Part shown: piece by piece, positions 3,293-31,066 of the stretch
Position numbering within the stretch: position 1 is the first letter of the stretch
Layout of the letters: each line of letters opens with the position of its first letter
Assembly: GCA_003022925.1 (NCBI GenBank)
Contig: PXRY01000124.1
Location: 1-35,954, forward strand
Source: Halobacteriales archaeon QS_8_65_32
Lineage (GTDB): Archaea > Halobacteriota > Halobacteria > Halobacteriales > Halococcaceae
Length of the DNA stretch: 35,954 nt
Direction of reading: 5' to 3'
Notes under the pieces: model-generated
What the model was told of the DNA's origin: nothing
What the model saw: only the letters and a program-made list of their open reading frames with translations
Database searches by the model: none
Program-made: the position numbers and the translations under genes

Positions 3293-3464
3293 CGTTTCCC
3301 CTACGTTCGCCGCCGGTATAAATGCGTTCGTGGACGGTTGGAATCCGGCGAGACGGCCCCGATCGTCGGCATTGACCCTGCTCGCTACCGCGGTTCACGA
3401 CTCTGTTAATGCGGTAGTGTTATCTTAGGAAATTCATCGAGGTGAGTCAGTAGTAGACGGCCCG

Positions 3465-3589
3465 AAAGCCCCTCCCGCTCGACCGGCCGCGGCTCGCTGT
3501 GCTCCTCAACTCGCTCACTGCGTTCGCTCGCTTCCGGTGCTTACTTCGCCGAAGCCGGACCGAGCGGTCGGCCCCTTTCAGTCCCGCCC
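3465..3589 (-). repeat. Dispersed intergenic hairpin element, copy A
   Basis: On minus strand begins GGGCGGGACTGAAAGGGG (3572-3589), contains GCGAAGTAAGCACCGGAAGCGAGCGAACGCAGTGAGCGAG, ends GGGGCTTTC (3465-3473). Ends shared with copies at 29125-29296 and 30229-30534. Confidence 0.75.
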
Positions 3590-10182: not shown

Positions 10183-10297
10183 CGGTGGTTCTTGACTGTC
10201 GTCTCGTTTGTACGTTGCGCCCGAACGGGTCGTGGCGTACAACGTAGAAGTTCGCTTGAAGAGGGCTAATGAGTCTGTTTAGTAAGTCCCAGAGCTA

Positions 10298-10344
10298 ACG
10301 GGCGCTGCGCGCCCGTGAACGCCCGACCCCTTCCAATCCCACCC
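10298..10344 (-). repeat. Short or degenerate member of the GGGCGGGACTGRAAGGGG element family
   Basis: Minus strand GGGTGGGATTGGAAGGGG (10327-10344), followed by perfect hairpin ACGGGCGC-gca-GCGCCCGT (10298-10316). Confidence 0.5.
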
Positions 10345-20686: not shown

Positions 20687-20830
20687 TTCGAGAGAGCTTC
20701 GGTCTCTCGAACCACGAGCGAACGAGAGCTCGAAAGGCGGGCGCGGCGATTCTTTCGTAGAACCCCGGTGACGCAAGCACCGAAGAGCGCAGCGAACCGC
20801 GAGAGACGAGCATGTCGGGGACTTCCGAAA
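20687..20830 (+). repeat. Partial member of the hairpin-rich intergenic element family
   Basis: Perfect hairpin TTCGAGAGA-gcttcgg-TCTCTCGAA (20687-20711) matching the GGTTCGAGAGAGCTTCGCTCTC module of copy D; also GTGACGCAAGCACCGAAGAGCGCAGCGAACCG and terminal GGGGACTTCCGAAACGG. Confidence 0.5.
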
Positions 20831-29124: not shown

Positions 29125-29296
29125 GAAAGCCCCTGGCACGCTGGCCTCCCGCGGTTCGCTGTCGTTCAAAGGACTTTGTGATGACGAAAGACGCCGGGGG
29201 CATCTTTCGAACCACGCGCACTCGCTCCCTGACGGTCGCTCGCGTGCTTACTTCACCGGGGTTCGGCCAGCGTGCCAGCCCCTTTCAGTCCCGCCC
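29125..29296 (-). repeat. Dispersed intergenic hairpin element, copy C
   Basis: Minus strand: GGGCGGGACTGAAAGGGG (29279-29296) ... GTGGTTCGAAAGATGCC-CCC-GGCGTCTTTCGTCATCACAAA ... TTTGAACGACAGCGAACC ... GGGGCTTTC (29125-29133). A 14-bp perfect closing stem CTGGCACGCTGGCC (29133-29146)/GGCCAGCGTGCCAG (29265-29278). Confidence 0.8.
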
Positions 29297-29405
29297 GCCG
29301 GGTCGGTTCGATTGTCGATCGTCGAAACGCGAAGCTAATATTAGTTCGATATTTCGAGGCGTGGGACAACAGCTATTTGACGGGTCGCGTCGCAGGTCAT
29401 CGCTC

Positions 29406-30215
29406 ATGTCGTACGAGAACATCGAACTCGAACGCGCGCCGCCGCTCGGCCTCGTGACGATCGATCGACCGGAACGGACCAATGCGCTCGACTACGAGAC
29501 TGGCCAAGAGATGGTAGACGCCTTCGAGCGCATCGACGCCGACGACGATATCGCGGTCGGCGTGTTGACCGGCGCGGCGGGGAACTTCTGTGGCGGTGCC
29601 GATCTGAAGGAGATCGCCGAGGGCGTCGAGATGGAAGGACGAACGTACAGCCTCATGGGGTTCTCCCACGCCGATGTCCGAAAGCCGACGATCGCGGCCA
29701 TCGAAGGGTACTGCATCGCCGGCGGTGTCGAGGTCGCGCTGTGGTGTGACCTGCGGGTCGCCGCGGCCGACGCAACCTTCGGGATGTTCAATCGTCGCTT
29801 CGGCGTACCCTTCGTCGATGGCGGCACCCAACGCCTGCCCCGGATGATCGGTTACAGTCGCGCAATAGATCTCATGCTCACCGGTCGGCCGATCGACGGC
29901 GAAAAAGCCGAGCAGTGGGGCCTCGTCAACCGGATCGCGCCCTCGGGCGGGGCGCTCGACCGCGCGATCGAACTGGCAGAACGGATCGCGAGCTACCCCC
30001 AGGGGACGATCCACACGGACTTGAAGGCGATCCACACGGGGATGGGCACTTCGATCGAACGCGGCCTCGAAATCGAAGCCTGGAACGGACTGCACTCGAT
30101 GCCGATCGCCCGGGAGGGCGCGAGTCGCTTCGCGAGCGGCGAGGGCCGAAGCGGCGCAGGCATCTTGGATGAAGACACCGGCGAGAACGGAAGCGAGCAC
30201 GGGGACGAGGACTGA
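29406..30215 (+). CDS. Enoyl-CoA hydratase/isomerase family protein
   Basis: MSYENIELERAPPLGLVTIDRPERTNALDYETGQEMVDAFERIDADDDIAVGVLTGAAGNFCGGADLKEIAEG...AIEGYCIAGGVEVALWCDLRVAAADATFGMFNRRFGVPFVDGGTQRLPRMIG. Start at 29406 preferred over the 456-aa extension through the repeat element. Confidence 0.93.
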   Translation: MSYENIELERAPPLGLVTIDRPERTNALDYETGQEMVDAFERIDADDDIAVGVLTGAAGNFCGGADLKEIAEGVEMEGRTYSLMGFSHADVRKPTIAAIEGYCIAGGVEVALWCDLRVAAADATFGMFNRRFGVPFVDGGTQRLPRMIGYSRAIDLMLTGRPIDGEKAEQWGLVNRIAPSGGALDRAIELAERIASYPQGTIHTDLKAIHTGMGTSIERGLEIEAWNGLHSMPIAREGASRFASGEGRSGAGILDEDTGENGSEHGDED

Positions 30216-30228
30216 CGAAACCCATCCC

Positions 30229-30534
30229 GGGCGGGACTGGAAGGGGCCGGGCGCGTGGCGGCTTCGCCGTGGTTCGAAAGACGCCCTCGGCGTCTTTCGG
30301 TCATCACAAAAGGCGCGAAGCGCCTTTTAAACGACCACGGTTTCGGAGGTCGGCTCCGCCGACCTCCCGCTCGACGAAGGCGGGCGATGCAAGCACCGCA
30401 GGTGAGTGACCGAAGGGAGCGAGCCGAGGCGCGTGGTTCGAGAGAGCTTCGCTCTCCCGTTATCGCAAAAACCGCGCTTTGCGCGGTCTTTTGAACGACA
30501 GCGAGCCCCCCGAGTCGAGCGTCCGGTGGCTTTC
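30229..30534 (+). repeat. Dispersed intergenic hairpin element, copy D (long, multiple hairpins)
   Basis: GGGCGGGACTGGAAGGGG (30229-30246); hairpins CGAAAGACGCC-ctc-GGCGTCTTTCG (30275-30299), AAAAGGCGC-gaa-GCGCCTTTT (30308-30328), GGAGGTCGGC-tcc-GCCGACCTCC (30345-30367), GAGAG-cttcg-CTCTC and AAACCGCGC-ttt-GCGCGGTCTTTT region; ends GTGGCTTTC (30526-30534). Confidence 0.8.
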
Positions 30535-30631
30535 AAAACGGTTTCAACGGTCTCCTCTCGAAGTTTCTCGGATCCAAACATACGTGTCCGGACCCGTAAG
30601 GGAGAAACCGATCGCACCCTGATACCCACAC

Positions 30632-31066
30632 ATGAAACCGTACGAGCGCGACGGGCTCCTCGAACGGGTCGAACGGGAGGGTGCGACCGTCGGCGCACGC
30701 ATTCCCGACACCATCACGATCCAGAGCCAGGAGATGCGACTCCGCGAGTTCGTCTTCGAGACGCGAAAGAAAGACAGCATCAGCGCGGACCAACGCGACG
30801 CCGTCGAGGAGGCAAAACGCAACCTCCGGCGCGAACGCCTCGCACGAAAGAGCCGTCTGGAGGACGCCGACATGACCGTAGAGGAGGGCGATGCCCTCGC
30901 GAACAGCATCGTCGGCATCGACCGGGCGCTGCACGCACTCGGCGACCTCGGCCCGACCGATCTCGAACGCGAGACCAAAGCACAGGAGACCGCCGACCAG
31001 AAGCGCTGGATGTCCTTTCTCAAGCAGGCGCTCGGCCACGACAGCGGCCGGAGGCACCGCTCGTGA
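30632..31066 (+). CDS. DUF5788 family protein
   Basis: 144 aa; MKPYERDGLLERVEREGATVGARIPDTITIQSQEMRLREFVFETRKKDSISADQRDAVEEAKRNLRRERLARKSRLE...; stop overlaps the GTG of the next gene. Confidence 0.85.
   Translation: MKPYERDGLLERVEREGATVGARIPDTITIQSQEMRLREFVFETRKKDSISADQRDAVEEAKRNLRRERLARKSRLEDADMTVEEGDALANSIVGIDRALHALGDLGPTDLERETKAQETADQKRWMSFLKQALGHDSGRRHRS

Follow-up and report, generated by a model that had tools for sequence, protein, structure and literature searches.

The window, i.e. the whole stretch of 35,954 nucleotides that was analyzed, contains a non-coding repeat unit that is located between an upstream ORF ending at position 30215, which we take to encode an enoyl-CoA hydratase-like protein, and a small ORF at 30632-31066. 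The left arm of the unit overlaps the final codons and the stop codon (30213-30215) of the hydratase-like ORF. A preliminary description had outlined this unit as a hairpin array at positions 30229-30534. The sequence and the coordinates proved to be correct, with GGGCGGGACTGGAAGGGG at 30229-30246 and GGTGGCTTTC ending at 30534, and the proposed pairings were recovered as well, namely that of the 5' GGAAG with the 3' CTTTC and, further inside, that of CCGGGCGC (30247-30254) with GCGTCCGG (30519-30526), each including one G:U pair. Likewise, the linkers were found, for instance TCATCAC at 30301, TTATCGC at 30460 and ACGACCAC at 30331. The reported interval represents only the interior of the element, as arms conserved in the family extend it by approximately 47 nt upstream and 50 nt downstream, where the conservation stops sharply. 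Moreover, the hairpins and linkers do not form one uniform array but a core and two inserted modules (Table 1).

Table 1. Parts of the window copy and further members of the repeat family in the window
Feature	Position	Strand	Remarks
Mobile unit, whole	~30186-30584	+	Alignment to the family; 30229-30534 is the interior
Left arm	30186..30232	+	Inner part family-like, outer inverted repeat degraded; by-eye alignment, 66-copy consensus GGCGGTGTTTAGTTAAGCGACGAAGACCGACAGGAACCG.TTCGGGT
Conserved 5' core motif GGGCGGGACTGGAAGGGG	30229..30246	+	Holds the P1 5' strand GGAAG (30239-30243)
P2 outer 5' strand CCGGGCGC	30247..30254	+	Partner at 30519-30526
Hairpin module 1	30255..30370	+	GTGGCGG..., GTGGTTCG-hairpin-TCATCAC-hairpin-ACGACCAC, then GGAGGTCGGC hairpin; inserted within the P2 5' strand, not in aligned uninterrupted copies
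Core	30371..30432	+	P2 inner 5' strand TCGAC, P3 5' strand GGCGGGC, conserved GCAAGCACC, variable P4 stem, GAGGCGC
Hairpin module 2	30433..30499	+	GTGGTTCG-hairpin-TTATCGC-hairpin-GAACGAC; inserted between GAGGCGC and AGCGAG
Core 3' part	30500..30534	+	AGCGAGCCCCCC (P3), GAGTCGAGCGTCCGG (P2), GGTGG, CTTTC (P1, 30530-30534)
Right arm	30535..30584	+	Inverted-repeat end degraded, CCAAACATACG; by-eye alignment, 48-copy consensus
Second family member	29125..29296	-	Alignment, R1 model
Third family member	3464..3589	-	Uninterrupted core, inverted-repeat ends
Fourth family member, shortened	10282..10344	-	
Degraded R1 core copy	20735..20825	+	37.8 bits

On either strand, the interval 30229-30534 folds better than each of 100 dinucleotide shuffles (z = -4.3). 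Removal of both modules leaves 123 nt, the minimum-energy fold of which is the consensus core with a P2 of 14 bp (z = -3.1). The covariance model of the core domain, designated R1, matches the window copy in two pieces because the modules interrupt the core. The inverted repeats of this copy are degraded, and no target duplication was obtained for it.

The conserved G runs GGG-Y-GGG...GGGG (30229-30246) and GGGGG (30523-30531) face each other across P1/P2, and a quadruplex beside the duplex is conceivable at these runs in a high-potassium cytoplasm.

A dispersed repeat family

The 5' core motif occurs four times in the window, against an expectation of 0.09 matches, and 257 times in the 3.28-Mb genome to which the window belongs (122 forward and 135 reverse matches), the reversed control pattern giving 0 and 1 matches. 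Since the motif by far exceeds the expectation in the window and the reversed control in the genome, the element is not a chance palindrome. A BLAST search with the element located 83 places, and the R1 model yielded 108 matches at E <= 0.001 in the own genome, with scores lowered by the module insertions. When one common pattern was applied, 238 motif copies were counted in this genome versus 9, 43 and 6 in three congeners (G001 to G003), which, judging from identical matches, are the Halobacteriales MAGs QS_3_64_16, QH_6_64_20 and QH_8_64_26.

The comparison with these congeners revealed orthologous sites that are devoid of the element. The site of the copy at 3464-3589 is a short intergenic stretch in G001 and G002, and the copy at 10282-10344 is missing in G001, G002 and G003, with sequence divergence hiding the exact junction in both cases. 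At the site 29125-29296, orthologous copies differ by a module of the same kind as module 2: the copy at this site in the window carries a 59-nt GTGGTTCG...GAACG module between GCGC and ACAGCGA that is absent from the counterpart in G002. The P2 arm sequences of these two copies differ as well, and both pairs of arms stay complementary. At the locus of the window copy, the element and the hydratase gene are both missing in G001 and G003, and G002 contains the left-hand copy only.

In the region 29125-30584, the enoyl-CoA hydratase-like gene is flanked by two divergent copies of the element, and it is missing there in all three congeners. This gene was possibly brought in as part of a composite insertion.

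Inverted ends and direct repeats

An alignment of the ends, 132 on the left (66 + 66) and 110 on the right (62 + 48), identified terminal inverted repeats of the type GGC[A/G]GTGTT[A/T]A... in the units of the own genus and divided them into two subfamilies. Subfamily one reads GGC[A/G]GTGTTAACTTACGC ... GAAAG / CTTTC ... GCTAAGTTAACAC and subfamily two GGCGGTGTTTAGTTAAGCGA ... GGAAG / CTTCC ... AAACACGACC. The P1 strands covary between them, as GAAAG is combined with CTTTC in 52 copies and GGAAG with CTTCC in 42, with 10 mixed combinations. Both ends were found in 46 copies with lengths of 195 to 681 bp. With the ends defined from the arm consensus and a direct repeat counted if at least seven of eight bases were identical, 8-bp direct repeats were present at one fixed register in seven of the 46 copies (null mean 0.87, maximum 2 in 200 permutations); an earlier scan for target duplications with loosely set ends had been suggestive only. 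The 8-bp direct repeats are best read as target duplications that have decayed in older copies, and the lack of a duplication in most copies is presumably owing to their age.

No transposase and no autonomous copy was found in approximately 0.49 Mb of own-genus loci, and none of the copies found bears a gene. Judged by their sequence, the own-genus units fit the MITE kind, being short, non-coding and multi-copy, with inverted ends, 8-bp duplications and presence/absence variation.

Two other origins were considered and rejected. Protein coding was dismissed on account of a frame that is not conserved and a longest open frame of 119 codons within the units, and a phage origin on account of phage records without a match. 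Additionally, several loci of genome G024 (e.g. L168, L174 and L177) contain tandemly iterated element arms beside the core, with GGTGGCCGGCAC... upstream and GGGGGCTTTCTGGCTGTTG... downstream.

Covariation and distribution of the R1 core

Uninterrupted copies from many lineages can be aligned over approximately 115 nt. The R1 core is composed of P1 (GRAAG:CTTYC), a GGG/GGG internal loop, a long variable P2, P3, the conserved GCAAGCACC/GAGGAGCGCAGCGAG region and a variable P4. RNAalifold predicted 29 pairs from 53 copies of many lineages, and compensatory changes were detected in 21 of them. Double-change cells numbered 209, versus 58 +/- 7 in shuffled controls and 24 to 37 with slid partners, the cells not being independent events since copies from the same genome are related. 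Paired cells amounted to 93.5% in the core versus 32-47% with slid partners. This covariation supports the earlier suggestion that selection acts on structure and not on a protein. A lack of covariation or of further copies, which the preliminary description had named as grounds against it, was not observed. Replication slippage might instead have generated random GC-rich palindromes without any selection, and the modules do resemble such products. For the core, this explanation is contradicted by the covariation above both the shuffled and the slid controls, by the conserved unpaired motifs and by the class-wide homology, and we regard it as hardly credible.

The R1 model gave matches in 188 of the 245 genomes of the order, representing 61 of 78 genera, and in many of the matched genomes the number of matches is a lower bound. 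The haloarchaeal occurrence of such sequences, stated in the preliminary description, was thereby substantiated. In a sample of the phylum, all 26 matching genomes belong to this same order, and the other orders were without a match.

Rfam 15 contained no family matching the element at either gathering or permissive thresholds, and its assignment to a known RNA family was rejected on this basis. Literature searches with motif strings gave no relevant paper, and topical searches gave only the MITE, PATE and SMR elements of Haloquadratum. The element is neither an artefact nor a member of a known family, in agreement with its initial proposal as an undescribed one. R1 itself appears to represent an undescribed class-wide covarying RNA domain, as far as the searchable literature is concerned.

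Signs of RNA-level and DNA-level selection within one element

A G.U combination preserves a pair in RNA and an A.C combination breaks it, whereas in a palindrome of double-stranded DNA the two are one and the same event, read on one strand or on the other. Among the core pairs, 60 G.U and 15 A.C combinations were counted overall, and 39 and 13, respectively, among the pairs predicted independently from both strands (p = 4e-4). The same tendency was seen in the P2 arms alone (34 versus 9) and in the own genus alone (19 versus 6), whereas A.C outnumbers G.U in the slid controls. Given this excess of G.U, the core appears to be under selection as RNA, on the strand that reads GGGACTG.

The hairpins of the modules gave a different picture. 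In 360 hairpins from own-genome elements, single mismatches comprised 35 G.T and 37 A.C, and three-base loops were found alike in both orientations (51 GAA and 45 TTC, 47 TCC and 41 GGA). Since mismatches and loops are strand-symmetric, the modules behave as DNA palindromes, and they look like freely flipping ones. The near-perfect hairpins and linkers, originally put forward as evidence for structural selection, consequently do not serve that purpose, as the modules give no sign of selection at the RNA level. The question of whether the structure serves as RNA or in DNA mobility, initially posed as an alternative, is answered with both, according to layer: the core is RNA-like in its covariation and its excess of G.U, and the unit has transposon ends and 8-bp duplications.

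In the loci L053, L070, L180 and L209, the entire segment enclosed by the P2 arms has the opposite orientation to that in other copies. Inversion acts on the entire core in these loci, besides acting on single hairpin loops.

These counts bear on the view that the element is nothing but a selfish MITE, with a core that has no RNA function and forms a DNA hairpin or cruciform helping the transposase to pair the ends. Such an element would have inverted ends and 8-bp duplications, a core that brings the two ends together, very different copy numbers among congeners and modules of a clearly DNA-palindrome-like nature, as observed. However, a structure in double-stranded DNA should be symmetric, as it is in the modules, and G.U greatly exceeds A.C in the core. 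The core is furthermore conserved over 61 genera and occurs in flanks without these ends, and on plasmids it terminates a long conserved non-coding stretch. With this evidence on the two sides, we consider the purely selfish element an unlikely one.

Genomic settings of R1

In three other lineages that were sampled in depth, the R1 core is embedded in different conserved flanks without the inverted repeats described above, and the mobile package is therefore not universal. In HArc-gm2, 10 of the 23 R1 copies have a divergent partner at a distance of no more than 80 nt. The R1 cores of the HArc-gm2 loci L192, L212, L218, L075 and L080 often form such divergent pairs, a few tens of bases apart, and head-to-head pairs are also present in several other genomes of the order.

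With respect to neighbouring genes, orientation around the copies is nearly random (left neighbours 19 versus 18), which speaks against a simple role in cis, for example the termination of an upstream gene; downstream, genes in the same direction are weakly in excess (28 versus 13), and this was not relied on. Transcription terminators or stabilizers of mRNA 3' ends that moved between genes would be expected in the intergenic positions of the copies, which often start no more than tens of bases from a stop codon, and would profit from the strong stem-loop. The left neighbours, however, show no same-direction preference, a T-run is missing after the stem, and the internal conservation goes far beyond the needs of a terminator. 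This reading was rejected, as the orientation bias was not found, and we regard it as quite improbable.

On haloarchaeal plasmids, the R1 core is preceded by a non-coding stretch that is highly conserved and divergent from a gene for an OB-fold, replication factor A-like protein. A 570-nt query from this stretch matched 161 plasmid records, 71 of which contain at least 80% of it. An R1 match was located at the same place in 22 of 22 plasmid loci examined, six of the matches being typical (83-102 bits) and 16 diverged (38-49 bits). The stretch of approximately 550 nt, with the R1-type domain at its end (L238:1536-2105 and the plasmid loci L240-L261), is unannotated in nearly all of the records listed and has no Rfam match; it is a candidate for a large RNA or a plasmid control region.

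The plasmid loci allow a different derivation of the family, in which a large plasmid RNA has R1 for its 3' domain, and the dispersed copies spread like SINEs, through RNA or by capture within transposon ends, parasitising or sharing the protein partner of that RNA. The 71 records with the nearly complete stretch, the constant position of R1 behind it and the OB-fold nature of the neighbouring gene are in favour of this derivation. On the other hand, the strand test of the long stretch was ambiguous and gave no clear signal, the dispersed copies of the own genus have the ends of a DNA transposon, and the long form was not found in the own genome, where the query was matched only from approximately position 443 on among the matches listed. 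A derivation from the plasmid RNA thus appears doubtful. In a bolder version, which we put forward tentatively and hold to be slightly more plausible, R1 would be a class-wide RNA domain and also the 3' domain of a megaplasmid RNA of approximately 550 nt divergent from the RPA-like ssDNA-binding gene, and the hundreds of chromosomal elements would be its mobile copies, a prokaryotic counterpart of SINEs, derived from a functional RNA inside which DNA-palindrome modules grow.

A probable mobile element with a structured RNA payload

The explanation that we favour, as a probable though by no means certain one, is that the window element is a copy of a non-autonomous MITE-like element carrying the conserved structured RNA domain R1 as its payload. 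The unit consists of an inverted-repeat arm, a G-rich motif, the R1 core and a second inverted-repeat arm. A putative transposase acting in trans on the observed inverted ends would insert it and thereby create the 8-bp target duplication. At the RNA layer, compensatory changes that accept G.U keep the core foldable on one strand, which suggests that the core is transcribed and acts as a folded RNA for the maintenance of the element itself or for the host. At the DNA layer, modules would insert at the few positions where the core helices remain pairable, and their palindromic form and their flipping would be due to processes at the DNA level, for example template switching within hairpins or additional small insertions, and not to RNA selection. 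From the sequence data available, R1 is probably a functional, so far unannotated class-wide RNA.

Most of the sampled haloarchaeal genera contain this covarying domain, the copies often numbering tens to hundreds, and it is without an Rfam entry. If R1 is transcribed, it would be one of the most abundant RNA families of archaea. The element also provides a clean case in which selection at the RNA level and at the DNA level can be separated within one mobile element. Owing to its strain-to-strain variation, the function of R1 is directly testable in tractable haloarchaea.

Comparison with known systems

The BOX, ERIC and REP/BIME elements of bacteria are intergenic palindrome mosaics with conserved linkers, hundreds of copies and a possible RNA structure. 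Compared by description, the present element differs from them in being archaeal and in combining a long conserved core showing compensatory changes with transposon ends. The double-hairpin elements of fungal mitochondria consist of two hairpins in a compact arrangement and insert into intergenic positions as well as into one another. By description, they are similar to the GTGGTTCG-hairpin-TCATCAC-hairpin-CGAACGAC module, although they belong to a different domain of life. Like the structured RNAs collected in Rfam, R1 has a covarying conserved structure and conserved loop motifs, but it is without a match in Rfam 15.

The QMITE2 element of Coxiella is a prokaryotic MITE with direct repeats of 7-9 bp, a predicted folded transcript and size variation (PMC10969869). 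The element described here resembles QMITE2 and other prokaryotic MITEs as a short non-coding multi-copy unit with terminal inverted repeats and direct repeats, which are 8 bp long in this case. Unlike QMITE2, it is GC-rich, has a class-wide covarying RNA interior that is shared with other flanks, and contains nested flippable modules. Haloarchaeal repeats without a transposase have been described in Haloquadratum as MITE, PATE and SMR elements (Dyall-Smith 2011, PMC3119063). Among these, SMR-A of approximately 110 bp inserts into the near-terminal palindromes of other elements (PMC3119063), much as the modules are inserted within another element here. PATEs have neither inverted ends nor target duplications, and SMRs lack target duplications (PMC3119063); the own-genus units have both inverted ends and target duplications and are, by description, set apart from the IS605-derived PATEs. 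The RNA payload and the module system match no described element that was found, and the mobility of the unit fits a known class.
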